A stretch of DNA of 51,389 bases from Bernardetiaceae bacterium (GTDB lineage: Bacteria > Bacteroidota > Bacteroidia > Cytophagales > Thermoflexibacteraceae), in NCBI GenBank assembly GCA_025454895.1, contig JALONO010000016.1, positions 1 to 51,389 of the forward strand. The letters are read 5' to 3'. A program made the position numbers and the translations under genes. Of the stretch, positions 5,853 to 46,817 are shown piece after piece; position 1 is the stretch's first letter; the number at the start of each line of letters is the position of its first letter. The notes below the pieces were generated by a model. That model ran no database searches, had not been told where the DNA came from, and was given only the letters and a program-made list of their open reading frames with translations.

Positions 5853-6216
5853 GGCAGATAAGCGGTGGTTTAGCGAAAAAGGCGCAAACGCCGGGTTAAA
5901 TTAGGTGGAAAAAACCATTTGATGGCCAATTACGGGGCCAGAATGATCGCCATGAACAAATTGTTTAGCTACAATGAATGATTTACTTACGTTAGGAAAA
6001 AGACCACAAAAAATAACCGGACGGTTCGTTTCGTTTTTTAAACAACAAAATTTGAACGTTTTTTGCTATAATTTTAGGGGTTGGATGAGGTAAAAATACA
6101 ATTTATCCCAACCAGCGATGGAGAAGCGGCAGAACGATCAGCAAATCTTAGTCAAAAAATAAGATAAAAACCACGAATTATTACATTAAGCCGATAGCCC
6201 GCCCGCCCGTAACCGC
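5853..6216. promoter_or_regulatory. Divergent intergenic region between protease and kinase operons
   Basis: An AT-rich 364-bp spacer that must hold promoters for both directions. A weak plus-strand candidate is TTTG near 6050 with TATAATTTTAG about 15 bp downstream, but spacing is short for the Bacteroidota consensus. No gene is visible. Confidence 0.4.
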
Positions 6217-7674: not shown

Positions 7675-7883
7675 AAATGCACGCCCCGGCTGTCATAACC
7701 GAGCGGTTTTGGCCCTTTCCCAGGGGTGAAAAGCAGGCTTTGCCGGATGCCGTTCCCCCTTTGCCCGATTTGAACGAGGCCGCCCCGATGGGAACGAGCA
7801 CGAGCCTTGCCCAACTGCACTATCTAAGTAAAAGTACACAGTTTATTGATTTACAAGGTTTAGGAAAAGTGAGAAACTACGTA

Positions 7884-7919
7884 TTTGCTGCTTCATTTCA
7901 GGATTTTGCCGTATCTTCA
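7884..7919 (+). promoter_or_regulatory. Candidate promoter of the second kinase
   Basis: TTTG at 7884 and TATCTTCA at 7912, separated by 24 bp; the -7 box matches TAnnTTTG at six of eight positions. It lies in the 289-bp gap before the kinase at 7964, and gives a leader of about 40 nt. No convincing gene occupies this gap. Confidence 0.35.
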
Positions 7920-7963
7920 AACCGGCATTGAACCAAAGCGTAACCCTTGTTTTTTAGCTACGG

Positions 7964-9655
7964 ATGAAAAAATTGTTTTACATAGGCACCATTGTGGCAG
8001 GTGGCAAGTATCGGCTGGACGAAATGCTAGGCCGGGGCGGCTTTTCCGAAGTGTGGAAAGCTACCTACATGCCCACTGGCGAAGTGTTGGCCCTCAAGTT
8101 ATTGGCCCCGGACGGCGGCATGGAAGACACTGACCGGGCGTTGTTCAAAAACGAGTACCTGCTGCTGCGCGACATGCAGCACCACCACCTGCTCAGGGCC
8201 GAGCATTACGACGAGTTCGAGTACGAAGGCGAAACCTTTACGTTTTTAAAGATGCGCTACTTTGCCCAGGGCAACCTGCGCAAGTGGATGCTCACCAACA
8301 ATTTCCACGGCCGCAACACCACCGAAGAGTTGCTGGCCCGAGTGATGAACGAGGTGTGCCAGGGCCTGGCTTATTTGCACAAAGCCGACCGCACCCACAA
8401 CGATATTAAACCGGCCAACATTTTGGTGAGCGACCAGCGCGAGTTCGTGCTGGCCGACTTTGGGATTGCTACCCAAGTGCGGGCCACGCTTACCCAACTT
8501 ACCCGGCGGCGGGCCGTGGAGCTAGCCACGGCCGAGGCGGACGGCGGTAGCCCCCGCACCAGCGGCACCTCTGGGGCCACCATCGGCTACGACCCGCCCG
8601 AGCTGTACTCATCGTTGCCGATCCGCACCCCGGCGGCCGATATTTTTGCCCTGGGCTGCACCCTGGTAGAAGTGGCCACCGGCCAACTGCCCTTTAACGG
8701 CGAGGGTGGGCGCATTTTGGCGGCCTATGACCTGCCCGCGCCCGACCTGCACGCCATGCACGCCGACCGGTTTAGCCCCCAGTTTGCCGCCTTGGTGAAA
8801 CGCTGCTTGGCCAAGCAGCCCGAAGACCGCCCCACGGCGAAAGAACTGGAACAACAAGCGGCGTTTTTCTTGCAAGAGGGCACTTGGCCCGTGGTGAAAA
8901 CCGTTACGGCCCCGCCGCCGGTAACTACCTCTACCCCGCCGCCTAAAACTAGCCCTAAGCCCAAACCTGGGGGCTCGCAGGTAACCACCAAAGTGGGCAA
9001 CGGCCAAGCCGACACCCTGGAGCTGAGCGAAAGCCCGGCCCGCTCGTTGCCCATCAATGGGCAAATGTTGGGCATCGTGGCCGCTGCTGTGGTGGTGTTT
9101 GGCCTGTTGGTGGGCGGCATCTGGTGGGGCTATACCTGGTGGCAAAGCCGCCCCGTCGAACCGGAGGAGCCGGAGGTGGAGAAAACCGATAGCCTCAAAA
9201 CCGACCAAAAAGGCCCCGACATTGTGTTAGATACCGCCAAGAAAACCCCAACGGGCACCGAAAACACCCAGCCCGTGGTGGAAAAACCGCAACCTAAGCC
9301 CGTGGAGGAAAAGCCGAAACCAGAGCCAGTGGTAGTAAAACCCCAACCCAAGCCGGAACCCGTGGTGGAAAAGCCTCAACCAAGGCCCACCCCCACCGGC
9401 CAACGCCCAGATTACATTGTGGCCTTGGAGGCTGACCTTAAAAGTTTGAAAGATGACATAAGCAAGCAAGGGGCAATTAGCAAACAATTTGCCGCCAACG
9501 CTAAAATCGTGGATACTCAAGGCAAGCAATTTGAAGACGTGGAAGACTTTTTGAGCCACGTTTCGTTTTGTTACTTCGTACAAATCGTTGATTTTGAACC
9601 CAAAACCTCCGGCGCGATCACTTATTTAAAAGTGCGAACCCAAGGCTGTAAATAA
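7964..9655 (+). CDS. Membrane Ser/Thr protein kinase (HND-type) with Pro/Lys-rich periplasmic stalk
   Basis: 563 residues. The kinase domain (about 10-305) has GRGGFSEVW, VLALKLL, THNDIKPAN (H145-N146-D147), DFGIA and DPPELY, so it shares the HND variant with the kinase just upstream. A membrane helix (MLGIVAAAVVVFGLLVGGIW, about 368-387) separates it from a stalk of repeated KPQPKP / KPKPEP motifs (about 440-480) likely to span the periplasm. The last 85 residues form a small domain (KQFAANAKIV, then VQIVDFEPKTSGAITYLKV) that resembles the C-terminus of the upstream kinase and is a candidate sensor domain. The stop lies 5 bp before the next start, so it is coupled to the exported protein at 9661. 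Confidence 0.93.
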   Translation: MKKLFYIGTIVAGGKYRLDEMLGRGGFSEVWKATYMPTGEVLALKLLAPDGGMEDTDRALFKNEYLLLRDMQHHHLLRAEHYDEFEYEGETFTFLKMRYFAQGNLRKWMLTNNFHGRNTTEELLARVMNEVCQGLAYLHKADRTHNDIKPANILVSDQREFVLADFGIATQVRATLTQLTRRRAVELATAEADGGSPRTSGTSGATIGYDPPELYSSLPIRTPAADIFALGCTLVEVATGQLPFNGEGGRILAAYDLPAPDLHAMHADRFSPQFAALVKRCLAKQPEDRPTAKELEQQAAFFLQEGTWPVVKTVTAPPPVTTSTPPPKTSPKPKPGGSQVTTKVGNGQADTLELSESPARSLPINGQMLGIVAAAVVVFGLLVGGIWWGYTWWQSRPVEPEEPEVEKTDSLKTDQKGPDIVLDTAKKTPTGTENTQPVVEKPQPKPVEEKPKPEPVVVKPQPKPEPVVEKPQPRPTPTGQRPDYIVALEADLKSLKDDISKQGAISKQFAANAKIVDTQGKQFEDVEDFLSHVSFCYFVQIVDFEPKTSGAITYLKVRTQGCK

Positions 9656-9660
9656 AATAA

Positions 9661-10254
9661 ATGAAGCGAATCATGAAACTGGGTAGGCTGGGCTTATGGT
9701 GCTGGCTAGGCTGGCTGGCCGCCCCCGCGCTGGCCCAAACCGCCGAGCCTGACGGTGCCCCGCTCGACGACCACGCGGTGGCCGCCCAGGTAACAGAAAA
9801 AATCGAGAAGTTCGGGATTTGCCTGGTCAACATCACCGATGCGACCCGGCTAAGCGAACCCGAACGCAAAAAAGAAATCCGGACCGCGCTGGACCTATTC
9901 GAGAGCGATACCGTGGCCGTACAGGTAGCCTCGGGCAAGGTGCCCCAAACCTTCACCATCAAACAGTATCTGCGCAACTTGCTCAACCTGGCCGATAAGA
10001 AGAACGTGCGCATCACCAGTTTTAAAGTAACCAAGGTGAGCAAGCTCGAGCTAGGCCCGGATGGCTCGTACTACGGCGTGGCGGAATACTTCCAGTCGTT
10101 TACCGAGAGCGCGAAGGACATCAACTTTGCCCGGCCCGTTGGGGTGCGCAAAAACATCAAAGTCAAGCTCACCCGCAAGTCGGGCGGGGGCCTCACGGCC
10201 GATTACTTCGAGATATTCTTGTCGGACATCACGCTGAAAGAAATGCCCAAGTAA
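9661..10254 (+). CDS. Exported protein of unknown function
   Basis: 197 residues with a signal peptide (LGLWCWLGWLAAPALAQ, cleavage near residue 25). The start could also be the in-frame ATG at 9673. The mature part has RKKEIRTALDLFESDTVAVQ, then FTIKQYLRNLLNLADKKNVR, then a strand-rich half ending in ADYFEIFLSDITLKEMPK. The order helix, DLF, strands resembles the C-terminal sensor-like domains of the two preceding kinases, so I suspect an NTF2-like or related fold; this is by eye. It starts 5 bp after the kinase gene and is almost certainly in the same operon, perhaps as a periplasmic partner. No assigned family. Confidence 0.8.
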   Translation: MKRIMKLGRLGLWCWLGWLAAPALAQTAEPDGAPLDDHAVAAQVTEKIEKFGICLVNITDATRLSEPERKKEIRTALDLFESDTVAVQVASGKVPQTFTIKQYLRNLLNLADKKNVRITSFKVTKVSKLELGPDGSYYGVAEYFQSFTESAKDINFARPVGVRKNIKVKLTRKSGGGLTADYFEIFLSDITLKEMPK

Positions 10255-10297
10255 CCACCGCCCATCGACGATTTTTTCACTAACTAAAACCACGTTC

Positions 10298-11122
10298 ATG
10301 CCACCCCTTCTTAAAATCACCTTACTTAGCCTGGGCCTGCTGGCGGCGGTGCCCTGGGGGCGGGCGCAAACCGCCACCGTGCCCGACTTGCAGTATTTTG
10401 CCGCCGTAAAGGGCATCACCGACTTTGCCGAGCGGTTTAACGGCCAGCGCGACTCGCTGGGCCGGGGCTCCAAGGCCGAACTGTCGCCCGTGCAGCGCAC
10501 CCGCGCGGTACTGCGCCTGTGCGACGCCGAAAAACTCCGCAACGGCCCCCCCGATTTTCGGAAAAACGCCCTCGCTTTTGCCGAGCAGTGGGGCAAGCAG
10601 CCGAAGTTGCTGGAACTGTTCCATCCGCAAAGTTTTGCCCAGGTGGCCTACCAGGCCGACTACCAAGGCCGCCCCGCCGAAGTTACCCTGGTAATGCAGA
10701 AACGCCGGGCCGCCAACGGGGCCTACCGCTGGATCATTGCCGCCGCCCAGGCCGATTTTTTGCAAATGAACGAGCGGCCGGGCCAGGTGCGCGGGTTTAT
10801 CCCCCCCAATAGCGGCGATGTGGACTTTGTGGACGTGGGCCGCTATTTACAGGGCCTGCCCCAGCCCGAGCACTTGGCCAGCGACGACTGGCAGTATGAC
10901 CCCACCAGCGCGTTTTTCTTCCTTATCCGCCAAAAAACGTTGCAGTTGAAAAGTGTGAAGTCGGTTACCTTCCACTTGGCCCAGTTTGAGGGCTGGGTGT
11001 TACTGGTCAAAGAAATTAACCGCCCGGGGCTTAACGCGGGCTACCTTATTACCGATGTAATACCGTTGGATACAGGGAGCAAATCTGCCTACTTGAAAAA
11101 CTACTTACCCGACGGCCGCTAG
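10298..11122 (+). CDS. Exported protein of unknown function
   Basis: 274 residues with a signal peptide (ITLLSLGLLAAVPWGRAQ). The mature protein has an N-terminal helical part, then LLELFHPQSFAQVAYQADYQ and a strand-rich region with VTLVMQKRRAANGAYRWIIA, then a C-terminal half with a repeated beta pattern (VTFHLAQFEGWVLLVKEINR). I do not recognise the family. It starts 43 bp after the previous exported gene and 43 bp before the next, on the same strand, consistent with one operon behind the kinases. Periplasmic or outer-membrane location is likely because there is no membrane helix in the mature part and no lipobox. Confidence 0.78.
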   Translation: MPPLLKITLLSLGLLAAVPWGRAQTATVPDLQYFAAVKGITDFAERFNGQRDSLGRGSKAELSPVQRTRAVLRLCDAEKLRNGPPDFRKNALAFAEQWGKQPKLLELFHPQSFAQVAYQADYQGRPAEVTLVMQKRRAANGAYRWIIAAAQADFLQMNERPGQVRGFIPPNSGDVDFVDVGRYLQGLPQPEHLASDDWQYDPTSAFFFLIRQKTLQLKSVKSVTFHLAQFEGWVLLVKEINRPGLNAGYLITDVIPLDTGSKSAYLKNYLPDGR

Positions 11123-11165
11123 GTACAGGCCCGTCGCCTTTTTCTTTCTTGTCAAAAAACTACAT

Positions 11166-12212
11166 ATGAAAAAATTAGGATTACTCCTTTTGCTATTATT
11201 CCCTGGCTTGGCCTGGGCCCAACCCAGCCCCGAGCTGATCGTCAACAAGGACCGCGGGGCCGAGTGGTACGCCAAGGCCCTGGAGGTGGGCGAAGATTTC
11301 GGGGCCGAACTCGGGTTTTTTATCAACCGGGATCCTAAGAAAAGCCCGGAAGCCCAAGAACGGGTGCGGGCCAAACTGATCAATTTATTTACGGGCGTGC
11401 AGTCAAAGGTGTACAAAGACTACGCCGCCAAGCCCAACCCGGCCGAGGAGGAGATTGGCCGCTACTTGGCTTATTGGAACACCCTGGCCAACAACAACCG
11501 CCAGCAGCAATTTACGGTGGATTATGTGTTTAAAAACGACCCCAACCAACCCCAGATTTATTACCGGGCCGATGGCTACTACGTGGTGCTAGTGGCCCAG
11601 CGCAATTTTAGGTGGGTAACGGGCAATGCCAGTGCCAAGCCCCCGGCGGGCATCCCCGATCAGGCTAATTTGACCTTGCACGTGCAGGTGGCGGCCGCCA
11701 ACCAGGCCCCGTTGCCCAAGCCGCTGATCAGGAACATCACCTTGTTCGACCCTAACTGGGCGGCCAACGCTTACCAGTTGGTGTCGTTGCAAGAGTTGCA
11801 GGTCGAGAACATCGAGACCATTGCCAAGGCGCGGGAGTTTTTGAAAGAATACGGCCCACTGCCCGATAAAACCCCCACGGCCCTCAACGGCTATCGGGCC
11901 ACGGCCTCGAGCCACATCGGGGCGCTGGACGAACTGATGCGCAACAACGGCAACGAGCGGGTGCAGATCCGGGCCAAGGAGCTAAAACTCCAGTTGCAGG
12001 ATATGAACGTGCGGATCGATGATGAGCTACAGGCCCAGGCGGCGGCTAACACCCAGCGGCAAAAGAAGCCCAAAGGCTGGTTTGCCCGCAACTGGTGGAT
12101 TGTGCCGGCGGCGGCGGTGCTGGTGGGCGGCGGGGTGTACCTGGCCACCCAGGCGGGCGGCGGTGGCGCGGCCAGCGACCTACCCCTGCCTTATGCTACC
12201 CCTCCCCGCTAA
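11166..12212 (+). CDS. Exported protein with C-terminal membrane anchor
   Basis: 348 residues. A signal peptide (MKKLGLLLLLLFPGLAWAQ) is followed by a soluble domain with RVRAKLINLFTGVQSKVY and a strand-rich part (QFTVDYVFKNDP, YYVVLVAQRNFRW), in the same order as in the two exported proteins upstream. Residues about 285-310 are a helical, possibly coiled-coil stretch, then a basic KKPKGW and one membrane helix (WWIVPAAAVLVGGGVYLATQ, about 310-330) and a short glycine/proline tail. The anchor would hold the domain on the periplasmic side of the inner membrane, next to the kinase sensor domains. No family recognised; the relation to its neighbours is inferred from motif order. Confidence 0.78.
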   Translation: MKKLGLLLLLLFPGLAWAQPSPELIVNKDRGAEWYAKALEVGEDFGAELGFFINRDPKKSPEAQERVRAKLINLFTGVQSKVYKDYAAKPNPAEEEIGRYLAYWNTLANNNRQQQFTVDYVFKNDPNQPQIYYRADGYYVVLVAQRNFRWVTGNASAKPPAGIPDQANLTLHVQVAAANQAPLPKPLIRNITLFDPNWAANAYQLVSLQELQVENIETIAKAREFLKEYGPLPDKTPTALNGYRATASSHIGALDELMRNNGNERVQIRAKELKLQLQDMNVRIDDELQAQAAANTQRQKKPKGWFARNWWIVPAAAVLVGGGVYLATQAGGGGAASDLPLPYATPPR

Positions 12213-12317
12213 CCACGGCGCAGCTTACCCAAATTTGGCCCGTTGGCGGCCGTTCCCTTCCCCTTTATTCATCTTTAGAAAAGGCCCCTGGCCGCTTCTT
12301 CTTTCTGTACTCAACTT

Positions 12318-14927
12318 ATGAAAGCTAAAATACTATTTTGGTTGATGTTAGTTTGGCCGTTGTGGGCCGGGGCGCAGGTGCCCACGGCCGGTTTAGTGGC
12401 CTATTATTCGTTTAGCGAAGGCAATTCGGGCTTGCCCATTAACGCTATTATCAATGCTACGCCCACCGCCGACCGTTTTGGCAACCCCAACTCGGCCTAT
12501 TCGTTCAATGGCAACAACCAGTCCATCGACATTCCCCACACGGCGGCCTTGCAATTTGGCAACACTTTTACATTGTCGGCCTGGATTTACGTGGTGGGCA
12601 CTCCCTTGGGCGATATTACTTACAGTATTTTGTCGAAAGGTGGCTCAGAGAGCGTGTTTGGTTATTATTTTGACATCAGTAGCCAGAGCCAGCTTAGGGC
12701 ATTTGTATCTAGCTCAGCTACAGTGAGTAATGCGAACACCGCCGTGTTCACCCCGCGCGACGTTTGGGTACACGTGGTGGCCACCTACCAAAACGGGAGC
12801 ACTTCTATTCTTTACGTCAACGGGGTTCAGGCGAGTAACAATCCCGCCACTACGTCGGTGGGCCTTAACACCTTGCCCCTCACCATTGGGGCCTGGCGGG
12901 GCCAATCTGGGGGGCCTTTACGTGACTTTTTCAACGGCCGCATCGACGATGTGCGACTCTACAACGTGGCCCTGACGGCCGCCCAGGTGCAGGCTTTGTA
13001 CCAGGCTGAGTCGGTACCGGCTACCCCGGCCCCCACGTTAACGGCCCTTAACCCCACGCGGGGCAATGTGGGGGCTACCGTGGAAGTAACCGGGCAAAAC
13101 CTGCTGCCATCGCCGCGCTATGGCTTTACCAACGCAGCAGGCCAGACCACCCAGGCTGGGGCCACCAATCTCACGGCTGGCGGGGCCCGCCTCACCGTGC
13201 CCAACTTGCCGCCCGGCAACTACGTAGTGCAGGCGGTGGTGAACAACCAAACTACTAACTCATTGCCCTTCCGCATTACCCAGCCCGCGCCGGAGTTTGT
13301 GGGCACGCCGATTTTTAGCCAGCCCGCCGGGGCTAGCACGGCCCGGATCACGGCCCTAGTCCGCAACGCCGCCCGGGGGGTCATCCAAATCAAAAACATC
13401 TCCTCTGAAACTAATTTCCGGGAGTTTGCCCTTACCCGGCAGGCGGGTACGGATAGCTTGGTATTTAATTCCAACGGAGCCATCATCAACGCCAACGAGC
13501 AACTGGGCCTCGAATTCAGATTCATTGCCTTCAACGCCGACGAGGTGGAGTCGCGCACGAACGTGCTCAACGTGCGGCTCATTATCAACAACACGGAAGA
13601 TGCTTGGGTGATCCCCTACACCCGGTTTGGCTCCGAGCAGTCTAATTACGAGATCATCTCGATCCCTGGGGAATTGAACAGCAAAGCGGTATCGGCAGTA
13701 TTTGCGGGCCTGGGCGCGCCCGACCTCAAAAAGTGGCGGCTTTTGCGGTTCAACCCGCCGGGCCGGGTCAACGAATACACTGACCTACGGGCCACCGACG
13801 AAATTGCCCTGGGCCAGGCGTACTGGCTCATCGTCCGGAGCCGCGACGACCTGGCCCCTGGCCCCTTCAAACCCGGGGGCGGTCTGTCGGCCAGCGTGGC
13901 CACCGACCGGCCCTTTGGCATCCAGCTCCAGCGAGGCTACAACCTCATTGGCAACCCGTATCGGTTTTCGGTGCTGTGGGAGGGCATCCAGGCGGCTAAC
14001 CGCGACGTGATCGGCCGGGAAAACCTGCTGGTGCCCGACGCGGCGGGCAACTACCAGGCCAGCGACCGGCTGCGGCCCTTCCGGGGCGGCTTTGTTTGGT
14101 CGGATGCGGGCGGGGCCTTGCGCATCCCGGTTACCGACCTGGGCCTGCCCGGCCGGTTAGAAGAAGACGGGCCTGCCTTGGCCCAAGTGCGCGAGCCCCT
14201 GGGCCGCCCCCACTGGGAGGCCCGCCTCACCCTGCGCCAGGGCAAGTTGGAAAACCAGTTGATTGGCCTGGGCATGCACCCGCGCGCCCGCGAGCTGAAA
14301 GATAGCCTGGACATGATGGCCTTGCCCCGCTTTGGCGCGTACCTGCACATGGCCGTGGAGCGGCCCGCTTATTTTTACCCCAGTTTTGGCCACGACGTGG
14401 TGCCCACGGCCGCCCAGAATATTTGGGATTTTGTGGTAGAGACTAGCCAAAACGCCAACGAACCGGCCGAACTGACCTGGGATAACCAGTACTTTGGTAC
14501 CGCCCGCCAACTGGTGCTGTTCGACCCCCAAACCCAAGCGCGGGTGAATATGGCCGTGGCCAGCCGCTACCAGTTTACGCCCGAGCCCGGCCGCCCCTAC
14601 CCGCTCAAGATTTACTACGGCGACGCCGCGTTTATCAAAGAAAACCTGATGCCCACGGCGGCGGCCCTGCTGCACGTAGGCCCCAACCCGGTGGCCGAGC
14701 GCGCCAGCTTTGCCCTGGCCCTGCCCGAAGCCGCCGAGGTAGAACTGGCCGTGTTGGATGCCCTGGGGCGGGCCATTACCCAGGCGCAGTACCAATACCC
14801 GGCGGGCTTTCACCAACTGGAGTGGGCCGCGCCTCCGGGGGCGGTGGGCCTGCGCGTGTACCGCCTGCGGGTGCGCTACCCCAGCGGCCACACCGAACAA
14901 TTTACGGGTAAATTGGTACAGCGATAG
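12318..14927 (+). CDS. LamG-domain and IPT/TIG-domain protein with T9SS C-terminal sorting domain
   Basis: 869 residues. After a signal peptide (ILFWLMLVWPLWAGAQ) comes a LamG/concanavalin-A-like domain (about 20-230): GLVAYYSFSEGN, then FTLSAWIYV, then GRIDDVRLYNVALTAAQVQA, which is the classic end of that fold. An IPT/TIG immunoglobulin-like domain follows (LTALNPTRGNVGATVEVTG, about 240-320). The middle (about 320-770) is beta-rich and unassigned. The last 85 residues match a type A T9SS sorting domain: LHVGPNPVAERASF, then VELAVLDALGRA and a final GKLVQR. It should cross the outer membrane by the type IX system and stay at the cell surface or be released; the LamG domain suggests glycan or protein binding. 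A bidirectional terminator follows 35 bp downstream. Confidence 0.92.
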   Translation: MKAKILFWLMLVWPLWAGAQVPTAGLVAYYSFSEGNSGLPINAIINATPTADRFGNPNSAYSFNGNNQSIDIPHTAALQFGNTFTLSAWIYVVGTPLGDITYSILSKGGSESVFGYYFDISSQSQLRAFVSSSATVSNANTAVFTPRDVWVHVVATYQNGSTSILYVNGVQASNNPATTSVGLNTLPLTIGAWRGQSGGPLRDFFNGRIDDVRLYNVALTAAQVQALYQAESVPATPAPTLTALNPTRGNVGATVEVTGQNLLPSPRYGFTNAAGQTTQAGATNLTAGGARLTVPNLPPGNYVVQAVVNNQTTNSLPFRITQPAPEFVGTPIFSQPAGASTARITALVRNAARGVIQIKNISSETNFREFALTRQAGTDSLVFNSNGAIINANEQLGLEFRFIAFNADEVESRTNVLNVRLIINNTEDAWVIPYTRFGSEQSNYEIISIPGELNSKAVSAVFAGLGAPDLKKWRLLRFNPPGRVNEYTDLRATDEIALGQAYWLIVRSRDDLAPGPFKPGGGLSASVATDRPFGIQLQRGYNLIGNPYRFSVLWEGIQAANRDVIGRENLLVPDAAGNYQASDRLRPFRGGFVWSDAGGALRIPVTDLGLPGRLEEDGPALAQVREPLGRPHWEARLTLRQGKLENQLIGLGMHPRARELKDSLDMMALPRFGAYLHMAVERPAYFYPSFGHDVVPTAAQNIWDFVVETSQNANEPAELTWDNQYFGTARQLVLFDPQTQARVNMAVASRYQFTPEPGRPYPLKIYYGDAAFIKENLMPTAAALLHVGPNPVAERASFALALPEAAEVELAVLDALGRAITQAQYQYPAGFHQLEWAAPPGAVGLRVYRLRVRYPSGHTEQFTGKLVQR

Positions 14928-14961
14928 GTGGGCCATGGCACGGATCGTCAAAAAAGCCAGC

Positions 14962-15006
14962 CCCGCTGCCTAGGCTGTTAGCCGCAGGCAGCGGGTGCTC
15001 TTTTTT
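14962..15006 (+). terminator. Rho-independent terminator, likely bidirectional
   Basis: Stem CCCGCTGCCT (14962-14971) pairs perfectly with AGGCAGCGGG (14986-14995), followed by TGCTC and six Ts (15001-15006). An A-run at 14950-14955 on the other side gives the minus strand its own T-run. Confidence 0.9.
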
Positions 15007-15052
15007 CGTGCTGTTAAACCGCAACAAAAAGCGAGTGCCGATTTTCCGTTCT

Positions 15053-15149
15053 CCCAAAATCAAACAAGGGTTGCGCGTTCTTTTTGTTGTAAAAAATTGA
15101 TAATCAGACATAAAAATCATTCAGTCATTTAATCATGCAATCATTCAAG
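15053..15149 (+). repeat. Dispersed AT-rich element with four degenerate octamers
   Basis: Head CCCAAAATCAAACAAGGGTT, then ATTGATAATCA, then four consecutive 8-bp units ATCATTCA, GTCATTTA, ATCATGCA, ATCATTCA. One of about ten copies in the spacers of this window. Confidence 0.8.
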
Positions 15150-15178
15150 AAATAACTAACGACTGACCAAGCTACTTT

Positions 15179-15186
15179 TACCTTCG
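15179..15186 (+). promoter_or_regulatory. Promoter -7 box abutting the start of the FHA-ABC gene
   Basis: TACCTTCG matches the Bacteroidota -7 consensus TAnnTTTG at seven of eight positions and ends 4 bp before the ATG at 15191. Transcription would start at about the start codon, so the mRNA is probably leaderless. No clear -33 TTG is seen. Confidence 0.55.
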
Positions 15187-15190
15187 CGGG

Positions 15191-18019
15191 ATGGATGTCT
15201 TTACCCTGATTCTCCAAGCCAACGGCACCGAAATAAACCGGGTAGAACTATGGCCCGGCCAGCCGGTGGAAGTGGGCCGCGGGCCTGACTGTGCCCTGCT
15301 GGCCACCGAGGACACCTACGTCTCGGCCCGGCACGCGCAGGTGGAACTGCGGGCCGATGGCCAAGTGTGGGTAACCGACCAGAGCACCAACGGTACGTTT
15401 CTGGTCGGGCAACGGCTGGTGAAAGGTCGGGCCGCGCCCTGGCGACCGGGCCAAGAACTCCGGCTGCTCAAAGAGGGCCGTTATCAATTGCAACTGGTGG
15501 TTACCTCGGTGGCCGCGCCCCCGGCCGCCCCGGAACCGCCGCCCGCGCCCCTAGGTCGCTCCCTCGCCATCATGGACCTGCCCGATGCGCCCCCGGCGGG
15601 TCAAACCCGCCTCACGGTGAACCAAGGGGCCGCCCGCGACCTCGCTTCGTTGCTCAGGGAAAAGAGCCTGCTCAAAATTGGCCGGGACCCCCAGCAGTGC
15701 GACGTGGTGCTGCACGACCTGGCCGTGTCGCGGCTGCACGCCACCATCGAGCGCCGGGCCGATGGGCAGTACCAGGTGCATGACTACTCGCTCAACGGCC
15801 TGTACATCAACGGGCAAAAGGCCCCCCAAACCGCCACGCTCGGCCCGGAGGATACGCTGGTGATCGGCTCGGCGGTGTTCAAGCTCAACGAGGCCATCCA
15901 CGACCTGCAAGACAACCGCACCACGGTGAGCATCCGCCAAGTGAGCAAGGGTTTTAACCCACTGAACCTCAATGAGTTGGTGATTGATGGGATTAACCTA
16001 GACGTGCGCCGGGGCGAGTTGTTGGCCCTCATGGGGCCGTCGGGGTGCGGCAAAACCACGCTGCTCAAAACCCTCAACGGCGAAAACCACCCGCTCAACG
16101 CCGGGCAAGTGTTGCTTTTTGGCCGCAATTTGGCCCAAGAGTTCGCGTATTTGCGCACGCGCATCGGCTATGTGCCGCAGGACGACATCGTGCATGGCGA
16201 CCTCACCGTGTACCAAGCCCTTTACTTTGCCGCCCAACTGCGCACCCCCAGCGATGTAACCGACGCGGAAATTAACCAACGGATCAGTGAAGTGCTGGCC
16301 CAGCTCAACCTGCCCGAACTGGACACGGGCCTGTTCGTCAAAGAACTGTCGGGCGGGCAGCGCAAGCGCATCTCCATCGCGGTGGAACTGCTGGGCAACC
16401 CCGGTATTCTGTTGCTGGACGAACCTACTTCGCCGCTGGACCCGCAAACCATTGGCGAGTTTTTGACCTGTTTGCGCAATTTGGCCCGCCAGGGCACCAC
16501 CATCATCATGGTTACCCACAAACCAGAAGACCTCCAGTTTGTGGACCAAGTAGCGTTTTTGAGCGTACGCGGCTATTTGGCCTACCACGGCCCCCCGTCG
16601 GAGGCCTTGTTCCAGCATTTTGGCGTGGCCCCTAGCTACGTGGCCGTGTACGCGGCCCTCAGCCAACCCGACCGGGCCGCCGAGTGGAAACAACGCTGGC
16701 AGCAGGTTTCCGGCCAGGCGAACGGGCCGGCCGTAGCCCCGGCCCGCCAAACCTTGGGCCGGGCTACCCCCCAGCGGCGTAGCCAACTTAAATGGTTGTT
16801 TTTAAGATACTTACGCATTAAATGGAACGACCAAGCCAATCTGGGCCTGCTGCTGGCCCAGCCGTATATCATTGCGGCGTTGCTGGTGTTTGTGTTCGAC
16901 CAGTTGGTCATCGGGGTGTTGTTCCTTATGGCCATTTCGGCGGTTTGGTTCGGGGTAAACAACGCCGCCAAGGAGATCGTGGGCGAAATGCCCATCTACA
17001 CCCGCGAGCGGATGTTCAACCTCAGCATTGTCAACTATTTGGCTTCCAAAGTCGGCGTGCTGGCCCTGGTTAGCTTGTTGCAGGTGCTCATTTTTATGAA
17101 CATCGTGTACGAGCGGTACGATGCCGGGCCTTACAACTGGCGGTACGCCTTGCAGCTGCTCAGCGCGTTGCCTTTGGCCTGGTTACTAGGCCGCGACTGG
17201 CTGGCCCGCTGGTTGGCCAAGCGCGGCGCGCCCACGAGTACCCGCGCGCGCCGGCGGGGCCAGGCGCGGGCCACGTCGCTCATTTTGGCGGGCATTGCGG
17301 GCTGGCAGTTGTTGCTGGCGGTCTATTACAGCGTATTCGGGTTAGGCCAGGCCCAGCAGGTTCACCTGGCCGACTACCTGGCCCTGGCCGGGCTAATGTT
17401 CGGCTTGGCGGTGAGTGCCACGCTGCTGGGCCTGCTGCTGTCGGCCTGGTTCAAAAACCCCGAGCAGGTCATGACCTTCGTGCCCATTGTGCTCATCCCC
17501 CAAATTATGCTGGCCGGGGTGGTTACCCCCATCGACTCGCGGTTGAAAGATGCCGTGAGCTACCTCACCCTGAGCCGCTGGGGCACCGAGGCCCTGGCCC
17601 GCGTGCAAGATGCCCATTTCCGCGACCCTGGGCACCTCTCGGTCCAGCAATTGATCAAGCGGCGGGTGGATACGGTGCTGGTCGACGACCCCGTGCTGGG
17701 CCTGCCCGTGCCCGAGCCGCGCGTGGTGGAGAGTACCTACCAGCGGGTAGCCCCGCTCAGCTTGTACCAGCCCGTACCCCAGGTGGACCGGAGTTTGTGG
17801 CAGGTAACCGGCAACGACACCCTGCCCAAAATCAGTCAAGAATTGGATAAAACGCACAGGGCCGGGGCGTTGCAACTTTTGGGCTTCGCCGACCCTGAAA
17901 AACCCCTGCTCCGGTGGTTCAATTCGTTTGGCCTCAACATATTGGCGTTGTTATTGCTAAATGTAGTGATGAGCGTGGCCACAGGCTTTTTGCTCAAAAG
18001 AAAAGACAAACTACACTAA
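15191..18019 (+). CDS. ABC exporter with two N-terminal FHA domains (ABCG/ABC-2 type)
   Basis: 942 residues in four parts. FHA 1 (about 10-95: VGRGPDCALL, SARHA, STNGTF); FHA 2 (about 145-235: IGRDPQQCDV, SRLHA, SLNGLYING); an ATP-binding domain with Walker A GPSGCGKTT (about 281), signature LSGGQRKR (about 386), Walker B LLLDEPTSPLDP and H-loop MVTHKPEDL; then an ABC-2 type permease with about six helices (from about 550 to the end), including a large loop before the last helix. This FHA-FHA-ABC-permease order is that of mycobacterial Rv1747, whose FHA domains bind its partner kinase; by analogy this exporter should be controlled by the kinases at 1.3, 6.2 and 8 kb. The substrate is unknown; lipid or glycolipid export is typical of the class. 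Confidence 0.95.
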   Translation: MDVFTLILQANGTEINRVELWPGQPVEVGRGPDCALLATEDTYVSARHAQVELRADGQVWVTDQSTNGTFLVGQRLVKGRAAPWRPGQELRLLKEGRYQLQLVVTSVAAPPAAPEPPPAPLGRSLAIMDLPDAPPAGQTRLTVNQGAARDLASLLREKSLLKIGRDPQQCDVVLHDLAVSRLHATIERRADGQYQVHDYSLNGLYINGQKAPQTATLGPEDTLVIGSAVFKLNEAIHDLQDNRTTVSIRQVSKGFNPLNLNELVIDGINLDVRRGELLALMGPSGCGKTTLLKTLNGENHPLNAGQVLLFGRNLAQEFAYLRTRIGYVPQDDIVHGDLTVYQALYFAAQLRTPSDVTDAEINQRISEVLAQLNLPELDTGLFVKELSGGQRKRISIAVELLGNPGILLLDEPTSPLDPQTIGEFLTCLRNLARQGTTIIMVTHKPEDLQFVDQVAFLSVRGYLAYHGPPSEALFQHFGVAPSYVAVYAALSQPDRAAEWKQRWQQVSGQANGPAVAPARQTLGRATPQRRSQLKWLFLRYLRIKWNDQANLGLLLAQPYIIAALLVFVFDQLVIGVLFLMAISAVWFGVNNAAKEIVGEMPIYTRERMFNLSIVNYLASKVGVLALVSLLQVLIFMNIVYERYDAGPYNWRYALQLLSALPLAWLLGRDWLARWLAKRGAPTSTRARRRGQARATSLILAGIAGWQLLLAVYYSVFGLGQAQQVHLADYLALAGLMFGLAVSATLLGLLLSAWFKNPEQVMTFVPIVLIPQIMLAGVVTPIDSRLKDAVSYLTLSRWGTEALARVQDAHFRDPGHLSVQQLIKRRVDTVLVDDPVLGLPVPEPRVVESTYQRVAPLSLYQPVPQVDRSLWQVTGNDTLPKISQELDKTHRAGALQLLGFADPEKPLLRWFNSFGLNILALLLLNVVMSVATGFLLKRKDKLH

Positions 18020-39228: not shown

Positions 39229-40158
39229 CTACAACCGCAAGCTAAGCAACCCCACCCCCAACTCTTGGGCCAGGGCGGCCCGGTCGGCGGGGGCCTCGGC
39301 GGTGGCGGCGAGGCGGCTGGGCCAGGCGGCGGGCAGCGGCCCTGGGGCCAGGTAGCACAGCACCTCGCTGGCGGCCCGCAGGCTGAGGCCCTGCACCCGG
39401 TACTGCCCCTTGGTGGGCTGGGGCGGCTCGGCTAGCCCGCCGGGATGGGTGGTCCATTGCCCCACCGAAACCACGCCCAAGGGGCTGCCCGTACTGGAAA
39501 ACTCCACTTCGCGGTTGGCCGCGTCCACAATGAGCACGGCCACTTGGGGCAGGGGCGGGCCGGCCACCGCCTGCCCAAAAGCCAAATACTCCTCGATCAA
39601 ATGGGAAGAATTGACGTACCGGCGCGTGGCCATTATGTGCTGTAAGGCAAACCCCGACACGGTAGCCCACCATTGGCCAGCCTCCCCAGGCAACGGGCTG
39701 GTGAGCAGCACCAAGTGCGGGATCCCAAACTTCTCGAACAGATAGAACCAGACCCCCGGGGCCGGGTGGTAGTGCGCGCCCGGCAGCAGTTTGGCCAGCT
39801 TGGTTTCGGTGGCAAAATAACGGGATTGCAATTGCTGGGTCAATTGGGCCACTAGGCGCAGTTCTTCCGTTTGACCAGGGGAGGTTTCGGGCCAGGCTGG
39901 GAGTTGGGCCAGCCCGGTTTGCAACTGGGCGGCCAACTGCTCTACCCGCCCGGTTTGCTGGGCCAGGGCCTCGTACTGTTGCCGCCACTGCTCGGCCTCG
40001 GCTTGCAGTTGGGTTACTTGCTGGCGGAGCGGGGCCAGTGGGTCGGGGTTAGCCGCCAACTGCGCGGCCAACGGGGCCACAAAATGGCTGCTCGCTCCGG
40101 GATTGGCCGCCAAAAACTTCACAATGCTGGTAATGAGTTGGATGTCGTGGTCGGTCAT
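39229..40158 (-). CDS. Coiled-coil protein with degenerate SpoIIE-like domain
   Basis: 309 residues from the ATG at 40158 (a TTG at 40179 would add seven). Residues about 35-100 are a Gln/Ala-rich coiled coil (LRQQVTQLQAEAEQWRQQYE). The C-terminal 190 residues follow the order of a SpoIIE/PPM phosphatase: PAPGVWFYLFEKFG where an active enzyme has KDIVSGDFYW, LLTSPLPGEAGQWWATVSGF in place of ADCTGHGVPGAFMTLLG, VAVLIVDAANREVEFSSTGS, and LCYLAPG where YLSSDG is expected. All metal-binding aspartates are missing, so it should be inactive. It lies 48 bp after its paralog at 40207 and shares its promoter. No signal peptide. Confidence 0.72.
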   Translation of the reverse strand: MTDHDIQLITSIVKFLAANPGASSHFVAPLAAQLAANPDPLAPLRQQVTQLQAEAEQWRQQYEALAQQTGRVEQLAAQLQTGLAQLPAWPETSPGQTEELRLVAQLTQQLQSRYFATETKLAKLLPGAHYHPAPGVWFYLFEKFGIPHLVLLTSPLPGEAGQWWATVSGFALQHIMATRRYVNSSHLIEEYLAFGQAVAGPPLPQVAVLIVDAANREVEFSSTGSPLGVVSVGQWTTHPGGLAEPPQPTKGQYRVQGLSLRAASEVLCYLAPGPLPAAWPSRLAATAEAPADRAALAQELGVGLLSLRL

Positions 40159-40206
40159 CGGGCAAAACGGCGAAAACAAAAATAGCCTGGGCGGTCAGTT
40201 TTTGGG

Positions 40207-41097
40207 TTAAAAAGGCACCACGGCCAGTAAAAAGTCGGGGGCGAGGCCCGGCCCGGCTGCGGGCTGCGGCCAAACGGGGGCCGGTTGGGTGGCCGATGAC
40301 CAGGCAGGCCACAGTGGGTGGTCGGTGGCCAGGGGTTGGGTGCAAAGCAGCAGCCGTTGGCCGGGCGACAGGTGCAACTTCCGCTCGGCCGGGCCGGGGC
40401 TGGCCGGGTAGGTTTGCCAGCCCAGTTCGGTTTGGGCGTAGACGGGCAGCCCCTGCTGGGCCAGTTCCACCTCGCCGTTAGGCTGGTCCACCAGGCAGGC
40501 GGTGGCCTGCAAGCCGGGGGCGGCCATTGGCCCCAGTTGGCTGGCCCACTGCCCCAAATGGGCCAATAGCCCGCCAGGGGCGATGTATTTATGGCTGGTT
40601 ACCACGTTTTGCAGAAACTGAGCGGCAAAATGGGCAAAGGCTTCGCCCAAGTGGCCCCGAAAAGGGCTTTTAATGAGCAGCAAGTAATGGATGCCCAGGT
40701 TTTCTAGCCCCACCAAACAGCTACCGTGATTGAACTGCCGATGGACGAGCCCCGTCGCTCCGGGGAACCAGGTTTGGATTTGGGCCAGGCCCGGCACTTC
40801 GGGGGCCACTACCGATCTCGCGGCTGCCCCTTCGTGCCGCTGGCGTAGGCGCAGGTTGGCTTGCCGCAGGGCTTGGTTTTCGGCCAGCAGGCGTTCGGCT
40901 TCGGTTTGGGCCGCCGCCAGCGACTGCTCCAGGTGGGCCACCGAAGCCCGGAGCGGAGCCGTGGGGTCTTCGACCGGGGCCACCACTGGTTCGGTAACTT
41001 GCCACGGCGTGGCCAGCCGTTGCCAAACCAAGGCCAAAGGATTGTTGGGCGCGGATAACCCTAGGTTCAAAGCAAGTGGCTGGTCGGTTTGGGCCAT
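40207..41097 (-). CDS. Coiled-coil protein with degenerate SpoIIE-like domain (paralog)
   Basis: 296 residues. A helical, charged segment (LEQSLAAAQTEAERLLAENQ, about 50-80) is followed by a domain with the same order as its downstream neighbour: FNHGSCLVGLENLGIHYLLL, IKSPFRGHLGEAFAHFAAQF (compare ADCTGHGVPGAFMTLLG), ACLVDQPNGEVELAQQGLPV and LSPGQRLLLCTQPLA. A glycine-histidine pair (RGHLG) is kept but the catalytic aspartates are not. The two proteins are clearly paralogs of each other. It is the first gene of the pair and has a good promoter. Cytoplasmic. Assignment to SpoIIE is by eye, against the intact SpoIIE domain at 44.4 kb. Confidence 0.72.
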   Translation of the reverse strand: MAQTDQPLALNLGLSAPNNPLALVWQRLATPWQVTEPVVAPVEDPTAPLRASVAHLEQSLAAAQTEAERLLAENQALRQANLRLRQRHEGAAARSVVAPEVPGLAQIQTWFPGATGLVHRQFNHGSCLVGLENLGIHYLLLIKSPFRGHLGEAFAHFAAQFLQNVVTSHKYIAPGGLLAHLGQWASQLGPMAAPGLQATACLVDQPNGEVELAQQGLPVYAQTELGWQTYPASPGPAERKLHLSPGQRLLLCTQPLATDHPLWPAWSSATQPAPVWPQPAAGPGLAPDFLLAVVPF

Positions 41098-41121: not shown

Positions 41122-41152
41122 CAAAACTATTTCCAACCAACGGCCCGGCCAA
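41122..41152 (-). promoter_or_regulatory. Promoter of the SpoIIE-like pair
   Basis: Minus-strand TTG (41152-41150), 20 bp, then TAGTTTTG (41129-41122), which fits TAnnTTTG; the leader to the ATG at 41097 is about 20 nt. Confidence 0.7.
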
Positions 41153-41342: not shown

Positions 41343-41372
41343 AAAAAAGCCGCCCAGGGCAAACCGGGCGGC
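41343..41372 (-). terminator. Rho-independent terminator
   Basis: Minus-strand GCCGCCC / GGGCGGC stem followed by six Ts, 57 bp after the stop of the exported protein gene at 41429. Confidence 0.9.
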
Positions 41373-42196: not shown

Positions 42197-42589
42197 TTAG
42201 TTGGCGGGGGCAAGGCAAAGGATCCGTACCGCCCGCCCGATGCGCTCGGTGTAAGGCCCCAAGGCCCGGCAGGTGGGCACTCCTTCGTAGCGGTTGTCGC
42301 GCTCGGTGGTGGCTATTTGCACCCACACGGTTTGGTCGGGGCCGGGCGTAAAATTGGTCAAATGGGCATCAGCGGCCCAAGGCTGCACCACTTCGCCGTT
42401 TTCCAACTCGAGCACAAAGGCCCCCCAAACGCCCATTCCGCACAGGTTGTGGCGGAAGGTGGCCTTGAGGTTGCAGTCCGGTTGGGGGTCATCCTCGGCC
42501 CCGACTTGGCAGTCGAAGCAAGCGGTTAAGCCTAAGCTGCTCATCAACAATAAGCTGACCGCAAAAAAATGGACGTTCAAAAATTTCAT
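42197..42589 (-). CDS. Small four-cysteine lipoprotein (copy 3, most diverged)
   Basis: 130 residues from the ATG at 42589. The signal ends in a lipobox (LGLTAC), so the protein should be lipid-anchored. The mature part has FRHNLCGMGVWGAFVLELEN and VVQPWAADAHLTNFTPGPDQ, then four cysteines in conserved places (C in DCNLKATF, NLC, TCRALG, ILCLAP), likely forming two disulfides. It is a paralog of the next two genes but the most diverged. Family unknown. All three are on the minus strand in tandem. Confidence 0.8.
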   Translation of the reverse strand: MKFLNVHFFAVSLLLMSSLGLTACFDCQVGAEDDPQPDCNLKATFRHNLCGMGVWGAFVLELENGEVVQPWAADAHLTNFTPGPDQTVWVQIATTERDNRYEGVPTCRALGPYTERIGRAVRILCLAPAN

Positions 42590-42638
42590 AACCACTAAAA
42601 TTGAAAAGTGAGGCCGGGCAAAGGTGCCGTCGGCGGTG

Positions 42639-42670
42639 AAAAAAAGCCCCCACCACCCGGGCAGGGGCTT
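42639..42670 (-). terminator. Terminator between lipoprotein copies 2 and 3
   Basis: Minus-strand AAGCCCC / GGGGCTT stem followed by a T-run; nearly the same sequence as the terminator at 43123. Confidence 0.8.
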
Positions 42671-42678
42671 GGCAAAAG

Positions 42679-43071
42679 TTACTTGTTCGGTTCGTCCACC
42701 GGGCTGAGGCAGGTAATTTGCCCGGCCCGGCCCATGCGCCCGGAGTAAGGGCCCAGGGCCTGGCAAATGGCCACGTTGTTATAGCGGTCGTCGCGTTCAA
42801 CGGTGCTCACCGTAAGGCGCACTTTTTGGTTGGGCGAAGGTTTGAAGTTGGCCAGGTCGCCGGTGGCCACCCAGGGCTGCACGATCTCGCCGTTCTCCAT
42901 TTCCAGCACATAAGCTCCCCAAGCCCCATAGCCGCATAAATTGTTGCGGAAGGTAGCCGTTTGGGCACATTGTGGCTCGGGGGCCGCATCGTTCCGCTCA
43001 AAGCAGGCGGTTAAGCCTAGGCTGCTCACCAACAAGCTGACCGCAAAAAAGTGGACATTTACGAATTTCAT
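42679..43071 (-). CDS. Small four-cysteine lipoprotein (copy 2)
   Basis: 130 residues from the ATG at 43071; its N-terminus (MKFVNVHFFAVSLL) is like that of copy 3, while its mature part is close to copy 1, so it looks like a step between them. Lipobox LGLTAC. Mature part: CAQTATFRNNLCGYGAWGAY, VLEMENGEIVQPWVATGDLA, then AICQALGPYSGRMGRAGQIT and CLSPVDEPNK. The four cysteines are kept. Function unknown. It has its own downstream terminator. Confidence 0.82.
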   Translation of the reverse strand: MKFVNVHFFAVSLLVSSLGLTACFERNDAAPEPQCAQTATFRNNLCGYGAWGAYVLEMENGEIVQPWVATGDLANFKPSPNQKVRLTVSTVERDDRYNNVAICQALGPYSGRMGRAGQITCLSPVDEPNK

Positions 43072-43122
43072 AACCAGTAAAATTAAACAGTGAGGCCGGG
43101 CGGTGGTGCCGGCGGAGATGAA

Positions 43123-43152
43123 GAAAAGCCCCTGCCACCCGGGCAGGGGCTT
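43123..43152 (-). terminator. Terminator between lipoprotein copies 1 and 2
   Basis: An 11-bp perfect stem (AAGCCCCTGCC / GGCAGGGGCTT) with a short loop and a T/C-run on the minus strand, 9 bp after the copy 1 stop. Confidence 0.85.
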
Positions 43153-43160
43153 GGTAAAAA

Positions 43161-43547
43161 TTACTTGTTCGGTTCGTCCACCGGGCTGAGGCAGGTAATT
43201 TGTACGGCCCGGCCGATGCGCTCGGTATAGGGGCCCATAGCCATGCAAATGGCCACGTTGTTATAGCGGTCGTCGCGTTCAACGGTGCTCACCGTGAGGC
43301 GCACTTTTTGGTTGGGCGTAGGTCTAAAGTTGGCCAGGTCGCCGGTGGCCACCCAGGGTTGCACGATCTCGCCGTTCTCCATTTCCAGCACGTAGGCGCC
43401 CCAGGCCCCATAGCCGCACAAATTGTTGCGGAAAGTGGCCGTTTGGGCGCATTGCGGCTCGGCGGCCACTTCGTCCTGCTCAAAGCAGGCGGTTAAGCCC
43501 AGGCCAAGCACCAACATTCCGATAATGGACATCACTTGCTTCTTCAT
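43161..43547 (-). CDS. Small four-cysteine lipoprotein (copy 1)
   Basis: 128 residues. Signal MKKQVMSIIGMLVLGLGLTA then the lipobox cysteine. The mature part matches copy 2 almost residue for residue from CAQTATFRNNLCGYGAWGAY to the end CLSPVDEPNK, with few changes, but the signal peptide is unrelated. That suggests the mature region spread by duplication or conversion. It is the first of the three in transcription order. Function unknown; four conserved cysteines and a surface or periplasmic lipid anchor are what can be said. Confidence 0.82.
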   Translation of the reverse strand: MKKQVMSIIGMLVLGLGLTACFEQDEVAAEPQCAQTATFRNNLCGYGAWGAYVLEMENGEIVQPWVATGDLANFRPTPNQKVRLTVSTVERDDRYNNVAICMAMGPYTERIGRAVQITCLSPVDEPNK

Positions 43548-44448: not shown

Positions 44449-46761
44449 CTACAATCGGACACCTACCACCAAAATATCGTCGCGTTGTTCGGCATCGCGC
44501 ATAAAAAGGTCTAGCTTACCCTCCAAAAAAGCTTGCTGTTCGGTGGCTGACCAGCCCGCGCACTGGGGCAACAATTTTACAAAAGCATCTACCCCAAATT
44601 TACGCCGGTTAGGGTCGTTCTGGTCGGTGTAGCCGTCGCTGCTAAGGTAAAGCATGGTACCGGCGGGCAGCCGCAGCTCTTGGGTGGTAAACTCGGGCGT
44701 TTCGTCATCGTAAGTAAACCCTATGGAATAGCGGTCGCCGCCCACCCGCACGGCTTCGGGGCCGCCGGGCAGCACATAGTACAACGGCCGCTTGGCGGCG
44801 GCAAATTGCACCAAAATTTGGCCGTTAAGCTCGGGGGTGAGGGCCACCACGGCTAGGTCCATGCCGCTGGCGGTGTTTTTTTGGCCGCGCAACAGCCGCA
44901 GCACTTTGGTGTGCAGGCGGCAGAGCACCTGGCCCGGATCAGTGATGCCGCGCACGTTCACGATGCGGTCTAACAGTTGTTGGCCCAGCAGGGTCATAAA
45001 AGCGCCCGGCACGCCGTGGCCGGTGCAGTCGGCCACGGCCAAAAATACCGTCTGGCCACGGGAAACCGACGGAGAAAAGTCGGCCTCCTCGGCCGCAGGT
45101 GGCTGCGAAACTTCTGGGGCATTGGTGGCCAGGGCCGTGGCCCAGTAAAAGTCGCCGCTCACGATGTCCTTGGGGCGGAAAAGCGTGAACTGCTCGCGGA
45201 AAAGGACATCCATTTCCCCGATTTCGGGCAAAATGGCTTGCTGGATGTTGAGGGCCGCCCGGATGCTCTGTTGCACCATTTGGTTTTGGCGGCTCAGTTG
45301 TTCGTGCTGGGTTTGAATGGTTTGGCTCTGCGACTCGATGTGGCTTTTTTGGGCTTGCAGTTCTTCTTTTTGTTCGGTTAGCTCAAAAGTGAGCTTCACC
45401 AGGGAGTTGTTGATGCGGCGGCGTTGTTGGCTGCTGCGGTAATAAAACAAGGCCATAAAAGCTGCCAGCAAAAACCCTACTCCGCTTAAAATACCCAAAA
45501 TGGTGAGCCAGCGGCTTTGTTGGCGCAGCCGCAGGTTGTCTTGGCGGCGGTTGGCGGCTTCTTGGCGTTGTAGCTCTAGCTCGGTGTTGAGGCTGAGGGC
45601 GGCAAACACCCGCGAGCGCTGGTCGGTGTAAAGCGAGTCCTGATAGGCCGAGAACTTGGCTTGGTAAAAAAACGCCTGTTCAAAATCGCCTTTGGCTTGG
45701 TAGCTCTGCCCCAGTAGGGCGCAGGCTTGGGCGGCCAGTTCGCGGGCCTTGAGGTTCTGGGCGGCCTGCAAAGCGGCCAGGGCATAGTCGATACCCGAAT
45801 CGGTTTTGGTACGGCCCATCAGCAAGTACAATCTGGCCTGGGCCAGTCGGGCTTGGCTGTACAGTAGCCGCAGTTGTAACCGTTCGGTAATGTCAAGGGC
45901 CTGTTGGCAATGCTGCTCGGCTTGGGCAAATTGCCCTTGGCTGCCCTGCACTTTGGCCAAGCCCAAAGTGGCCCGCACCAGCCCCAGTTGGTCGTCTTGC
46001 CGGGTGGCCAACTGGTGGGCCTGGCGCATAAACTGGAGGGCAGAGTCGGGGCGTTGGTTCTCAAAATAAAAATCGCCTAAACTGGTGAGGATAAAGACAT
46101 GCTCCCGCGCATTGTTCGATCGGTTGGCGTAAAACAACGCCCGGTTAAAGTAGTCGCGGCTTTGGCCCAGCTTGAGCACCCGTTCGTTGCCCTTGAGGTG
46201 GACGGCCTCTTGGCGGGCAAAATCGCCCAGGTTGGCCAACGTACTGGCCATGCCGCGCCAGTCTTTGGCCAGGTCGCGGTAAGTAAGCGAGCGGTTGTAA
46301 TAATCGATGGCCTTTTTGGCATCGCCGAGGGTTTTGTACACTTGGGCCAGGTTGTCGTAAGCCCAGCCGAGGCCGTTTTTGTTGTTCACCGACTGGTGGA
46401 TGCGCAACGCCCAGTCATGGTACACCAGGGCACTGTCATATTGCCCGCGCTGGAAAAACGCCACCCCGATCAAGTCCTTGGCGTTGCCCAAGCCGGGGCG
46501 GAAGTTGATCCGGGTGGCCAGGGTATCGGCCTGGCGGGCAAACCGCTCGGTGAGGGCGGGGTCCACGTTTACGTAGCGGATCGCCGCAATGTTGAGCCAT
46601 TTTATCCGGGCCGTGTCGGTGGGCGAATTGGCCAATTGCTGGGCCAGGCTATCGAGGTTGGGGGCCTGGGCCGCCGCACCCAGCCCGCTGATTAATCCGA
46701 GCCAAACCCAAACCAACCACCTGGCGGTAAAAAATGAGGGTAGGCGAAGCCAATTTGCCAT
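44449..46761 (-). CDS. TPR-repeat membrane SpoIIE-type phosphatase
   Basis: 770 residues from the ATG at 46761, which opens on a signal sequence (FTARWLVWVWLGLISGLGAA). Residues about 40-390 are TPR repeats in the periplasm (NGLGWAYDNLAQVYKTLGDA and others). A membrane helix (WLTILGILSGVGFLLAAFMA, about 418-437) leads to a long coiled coil and a cytoplasmic SpoIIE/PPM phosphatase (about 525-770) with intact metal sites: KDIVSGDFYW, FLAVADCTGHGVPGAFMTLL, and YLSSDGYTDQND. This is a standard Bacteroidota sensor-phosphatase layout, probably acting on an anti-sigma-antagonist protein. It is the active relative of the two degenerate SpoIIE-like proteins 3-7 kb away. Confidence 0.93.
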   Translation of the reverse strand: MANWLRLPSFFTARWLVWVWLGLISGLGAAAQAPNLDSLAQQLANSPTDTARIKWLNIAAIRYVNVDPALTERFARQADTLATRINFRPGLGNAKDLIGVAFFQRGQYDSALVYHDWALRIHQSVNNKNGLGWAYDNLAQVYKTLGDAKKAIDYYNRSLTYRDLAKDWRGMASTLANLGDFARQEAVHLKGNERVLKLGQSRDYFNRALFYANRSNNAREHVFILTSLGDFYFENQRPDSALQFMRQAHQLATRQDDQLGLVRATLGLAKVQGSQGQFAQAEQHCQQALDITERLQLRLLYSQARLAQARLYLLMGRTKTDSGIDYALAALQAAQNLKARELAAQACALLGQSYQAKGDFEQAFFYQAKFSAYQDSLYTDQRSRVFAALSLNTELELQRQEAANRRQDNLRLRQQSRWLTILGILSGVGFLLAAFMALFYYRSSQQRRRINNSLVKLTFELTEQKEELQAQKSHIESQSQTIQTQHEQLSRQNQMVQQSIRAALNIQQAILPEIGEMDVLFREQFTLFRPKDIVSGDFYWATALATNAPEVSQPPAAEEADFSPSVSRGQTVFLAVADCTGHGVPGAFMTLLGQQLLDRIVNVRGITDPGQVLCRLHTKVLRLLRGQKNTASGMDLAVVALTPELNGQILVQFAAAKRPLYYVLPGGPEAVRVGGDRYSIGFTYDDETPEFTTQELRLPAGTMLYLSSDGYTDQNDPNRRKFGVDAFVKLLPQCAGWSATEQQAFLEGKLDLFMRDAEQRDDILVVGVRL

Positions 46762-46785
46762 GCAAGATGTCGGAGTACAATAACA

Positions 46786-46817
46786 CAAATATAACCTACG
46801 GGTACAGATTGTTCCAA
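46786..46817 (-). promoter_or_regulatory. Promoter of the TPR/SpoIIE gene
   Basis: Minus-strand TTG (46817-46815), 21 bp, then TATATTTG (46793-46786), a full TAnnTTTG match; leader of about 20 nt to the ATG at 46761, which supports that start. Confidence 0.75.

Follow-up and report, generated by a model that had tools for sequence, protein, structure and literature searches.

Our analysis revealed a tandem pair of genes in a Bernardetiaceae bacterium whose products have the hallmarks of SpoIIE-type phosphatases stripped of their catalytic aspartates, and which are probably bicistronic pseudophosphatases acting as non-catalytic adaptors or scaffolds, comparable to RssB and plausibly paired with each other. 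The pair lies on the minus strand of the window, that is, the whole stretch of 51,389 nucleotides that was analyzed (contig JALONO010000016.1 of assembly GCA_025454895.1), and its two reading frames sit exactly where the original prediction had placed them. Specifically, P0002, the first gene (40207..41097, 296 aa), combines a coiled-coil linker with a SpoIIE/PPM-fold domain without catalytic aspartates, and its paralogue P0001, the second gene (39229..40158), encodes 309 aa from the ATG at 40158, or 316 aa from an alternative TTG start at 40179. The two are separated by 48 bases, and their paralogy is evident at the protein level (BLASTP 3e-11, 28% identity over 220 columns). Both frames look real and maintained, because they are uninterrupted, their GC3 (0.80 and 0.74) resembles that of neighboring genes, and, among aligned codons, pN is well below random pairing (0.483 vs 0.721) while silent differences are near saturation (pS 0.605 vs 0.679).

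In its layout, the pair is operon-like. A match to TTG-N20-TANNTTTG, which we take to be the promoter form of Bacteroidota, occurs on the minus strand at 41122..41152 (TTG-N20-TAGTTTTG) and ends 24 bases 5' of the P0002 ATG; the pattern has two matches in the window, against 0.69 expected, and is absent from the 48-base gap between the genes. Further, a terminator-like hairpin on the minus strand (GCCGCCCGG..CTGGGCGGC with the T6 run TTTTTT, 41349..41372) stands between P0002 and the next gene upstream. A scan for sigma-70 promoters gave nothing useful, and the terminator scan of the window showed no excess over shuffles overall, individual sites resting on their long stems and T-runs. Promoter match, upstream hairpin, and short gap together fit a single two-gene transcript, in line with the proposal that one promoter serves both genes. 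Also on the minus strand, at 42197-43547, the window encodes three closely similar small proteins in tandem, each with a lipoprotein-like LTACF segment, and near-identical terminator-like hairpins (43152-43126 and 42670-42644) follow two of the three.

Standard family models do not recognize either protein. Pfam and NCBIfam scans placed no family above cut-off for P0001 or P0002 and gave weak coiled-coil matches only, PF07228 (SpoIIE) had no match to either at E 10 and its gathering cut-off was not reached, and a sequence search of solved structures with the pair returned no relevant match. The same PF07228 model finds 26 stretches above cut-off in the 4.58-Mb host genome, equivalent to about 25 SpoIIE domains, and 20 SpoIIE domains from this genome were aligned with the pair. 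When the profile of the pair was compared with the SpoIIE profile from its own genome, hhalign returned a score of 46.4 (probability 89, E 2e-6 for a single comparison), against a maximum of 21.0 among 200 column shuffles and 11.4 for the reversed alignment. P0002 alone scored 32.5 (shuffle maximum 24.8), and P0001 alone was borderline at 26.5 (shuffle maximum 27.5), so its assignment leans in part on P0002, its paralogue. Among the 20 SpoIIE domains, an HMM built from the two proteins matched two in particular (L032 at 5.7e-7 and L024 at 4.1e-5), and when 390 genomes from the order were searched with the two-row profile, SpoIIE proteins came up, with DCTGHG motifs in 24 of the 26 loci inspected. 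By profile homology, the pair belongs to the SpoIIE/PPM (PP2C) superfamily.

All four metal-binding aspartates (GD, DxxGxG, DG, and DD) are nevertheless replaced in both proteins, and are kept in 20 of the 20 other aligned domains. At the first site, SGDFYW aligns with GVW-FYL in P0001 (GD to VW), and P0002 has no Asp in the GD segment, where the alignment is uncertain. At the second, DCTGHG gives way to TSPLPG in P0001 and KSPFRG in P0002; at the third, SDGYTD gives way to APGPL and TQPLA, respectively (SDG to APG and TQP). These three losses, with their replacements, are as the original prediction gave them, and our alignment adds a fourth that it had missed, the C-terminal DD (RDDILVVG), which corresponds to LGVGLL in P0001 (LG) and PDFLLAV in P0002 (PD). 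Judging from these replacements, both proteins would lack enzyme activity. The two have in common the replacing “SP” and the kept glycines of the DCTGHG loop, and the C-terminal helical segment of the domain is shortened in both, which argues for a common ancestor that was already dead at duplication; catalysis was thus probably lost first, as far as two sequences can tell.

The predicted structure points the same way. P0002 was modeled with AlphaFold2 from a two-row alignment; mean pLDDT is 60, and most of the linker and core reach 62-87. In the model, a long helix at residues 47-93 precedes a strand-strand-strand-helix-helix-strand-strand core. In a Foldseek search of the PDB, the model's best match is the PP2C domain of SiaA (8.9e-6), with further matches to Pseudomonas aeruginosa RssB, SpoIIE, a stressosome phosphatase (3zt9), and RsbX, and VIA-align gives Z scores of 13.4 for SiaA (182 residues, rmsd 3.9), 13.2 for RssB, 13.1 for Rv1364c, and 12.9 for RsbX. 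In this comparison with SpoIIE/RsbU-type proteins the P0002 model is PPM-like, and an unrelated fold was not seen. The P0001 model is of low confidence (pLDDT 42), with SpoIIE as its top match (Z 7.6), and was given no independent weight; its matches to proteasome subunits (Z 5-6) were rejected as carrying no homology signal, given the poor model and the common architecture of PPM phosphatases and proteasomal proteases (PMC5468089). Sequence profile, predicted fold, and the loss of four metal-binding aspartates together back the reading of the pair as dead SpoIIE phosphatases.

The degenerate domain occupies residues 103-296 of P0002 (40210..40791, minus strand), with the core strands and helices 148-168 and 174-187, the putative switch helices, retained, and residues 117-309 of P0001 (39232..39810, minus strand). 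Between the two proteins, conservation is lowest in the putative switch helices (20% identity), which fits different partners rather than one common interface. Ahead of the domain, the helix at residues 47-93 of P0002 (40819..40959, minus strand), read as a coiled-coil linker, aligns with a long AlphaFold2 helix at residues 42-84 of P0001 (39907..40035, minus strand) across a 7-residue gap, equal to one heptad. As for the coiled coils that the original prediction described, both models have the long helices, but the hydrophobic 3.5-residue repeat is significant in P0001 (p 0.0075) and not in P0002 (p 0.20).

By analogy, we infer an adaptor role for the pair, in which a partner protein would be bound through the linker and the switch-helix face of the PPM domain, without catalysis, as in Escherichia coli RssB; P0001 and P0002 would plausibly heterodimerize through their own coiled coils. 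This binding role is suggested by the retention of the linker helix and of helices at the switch positions, by the absence of the catalytic residues, and by the precedent of RssB. The E. coli protein is the main bacterial example of a PPM pseudoenzyme. Its linker and switch helices govern adaptor function, and phosphatase activity is not needed (PMC5468089, PMC12143880). PPM pseudoenzymes in general have been proposed to represent stages at which catalysis is lost but the regulatory switch persists (PMC5468089).

The resemblance to E. coli RssB covers a PPM/SpoIIE fold without phosphatase function, a helical linker before the domain, and a shortened C-terminal part, and RssB is one of the best structural matches to the P0002 model (Z 11.6-12.4); the RssB-type arrangement of a pseudo-PPM domain behind a helical linker is present in the alignment and in the predicted model. 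RssB, however, is a single gene with an N-terminal receiver domain, whereas the pair consists of two adjacent paralogues with no receiver or sensor domain: the Pfam and NCBIfam scans found no receiver domain, and only about 40 residues precede the linker helix. RsbU, SpoIIE, and SiaA likewise have a helical linker and then the same fold, with clear profile homology to the pair, but they are active enzymes, with the metal-binding aspartates in place. Among eukaryotes, TAB1 and PHLPP2 are known PPM pseudophosphatases (PMC12002173) that have lost catalysis and for which a role in binding or scaffolding is retained or has been proposed; unlike the pair, they keep the metal site in part (one metal in M2), and they have other partners.

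More tentatively, the pair might form an obligate heterodimer, arisen from a duplicated dead copy, that serves as a regulatory scaffold among the approximately 25 active SpoIIE domains of the genome. Somewhat less likely again, the two proteins could be decoys or dominant negatives that heterodimerize with an active SpoIIE phosphatase or hold its substrate. The obvious candidate is the TPR/SpoIIE protein encoded 3.35 kb upstream on the same strand (44449..46788, minus strand), which has intact catalytic motifs. PPM phosphatases of the SpoIIE type do dimerize via coiled-coil linkers and switch helices (PMC12143880), and in another genome a degenerate SpoIIE protein (P0004, at 9702-10979 of locus L072) is encoded ~270 bases ahead of the gene for an active TPR/SpoIIE protein. 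However, terminator-like sites at 43152, 42670, and 41372 intervene between the TPR/SpoIIE gene and the pair, whose C-terminal domain segment is shortened; a SpoIIE domain would lie so near by chance with a probability of 4-7% (25 domains in 4.58 Mb), and by similarity to the pair the neighbor's domain comes only 18th of 20. Rank and proximity make this neighbor an unlikely source and not specifically a partner, and on its rank we rejected a derivation of the pair from it. The original prediction had proposed the pair as possible decoys or scaffolds for the substrate of such a phosphatase; its general binding role survives in our preferred explanation, but the link to the TPR/SpoIIE protein in particular is weak. 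Elsewhere in the window (3077-18019), ORF translations indicate a dense group of phosphosignaling genes, including a PP2C phosphatase, two Ser/Thr kinases, and FHA-domain proteins.

It is improbable, though conceivable, that the pair regulates an anti-sigma factor by binding, in its phosphorylated form, the STAS (RsbV-like) substrate of a partner-switch module. The host genome has three STAS genes and, on contig C112, an apparent RsbU-RsbV-RsbW run (SpoIIE at 13416, STAS at 14349, HATPase at 14695), so possible partners may be encoded elsewhere; yet the STAS genes sit on other contigs, and no gene for a STAS or anti-sigma protein was seen near the pair. The run itself (C112:13416-15066), with consecutive genes for a SpoIIE phosphatase, a STAS protein, and an RsbW-like ATPase, is an apparent partner-switch operon of the same genome. 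We give very little credence to the idea that the pair represents functionless, decaying duplicates of a phosphatase gene: every catalytic site is lost and orthologues were not found, but the two ORFs remain uninterrupted at 28-33% identity with normal codon-position GC, amino-acid similarity is kept at near-saturated silent sites, and promoter-like and terminator-like sites are present. That the two proteins are active phosphatases built around an unusual metal site, an idea for which the predicted PPM fold of P0002 and the one C-terminal Asp that it keeps beside the lost ligand might speak, can practically be dismissed, as four aspartate ligands are gone in both proteins and even partial ligand loss accompanies inactivity in PHLPP2 and TAB1 (PMC12002173).

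The profile searches covered 390 genomes of the order, 395 of the class, and 395 of the phylum, in overlapping samples that contained no second genome of the host genus, and they returned ordinary SpoIIE proteins and a few other degenerate ones but no counterpart of the pair. Orthologues were likewise found neither in genome contigs, by a pattern-based search that may miss distant relatives, nor in viral contigs or plasmids, and the literature searched, with most subscription papers outside its scope, described no degenerate SpoIIE pair. The claim that no such pair had been described therefore holds for these genomes and papers, but pseudo-PPM proteins as such (RssB, TAB1, PHLPP2) are already known.

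Among the other degenerate proteins, P0004 is a 425-aa coiled-coil/SpoIIE protein that adjoins two Ras-like GTPase genes and has lost three of four aspartates, which its homologues in seven genomes keep; this is a second loss, independent of that in the pair. Its GTPase-linked family, from the same order, resembles the pair in joining a coiled coil to a SpoIIE domain, but differs in its length of about 425 aa, an extra N-terminal domain, a Ras-like GTPase gene adjacent in most loci, and catalytic motifs that are kept except in P0004. The P0004 locus (L072:7729-13683) encodes, in a row, a coiled-coil protein, two Ras-like GTPases, the degenerate SpoIIE protein, and the active TPR/SpoIIE protein, and seven related clusters (within L074-L082) each combine an intact SpoIIE protein with a single Ras-like GTPase. 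A relation of the pair to this cluster is not supported, as the GTPase P0006 had no match in the host genome in a search run without a positive control. In a further genome, a 601-aa SpoIIE protein (L107, from 1501) with EVTNPG for DCTGHG and TDS for SDG is possibly another pseudophosphatase.

Together, the tandem pair and the separate GTPase-linked loss suggest that catalysis has been lost repeatedly in SpoIIE-rich genomes, with the most diverged dead PPM cases escaping the Pfam SpoIIE model. As probable RssB-like adaptors, P0001 and P0002 offer a small, tractable system for the role of a dead PPM fold.
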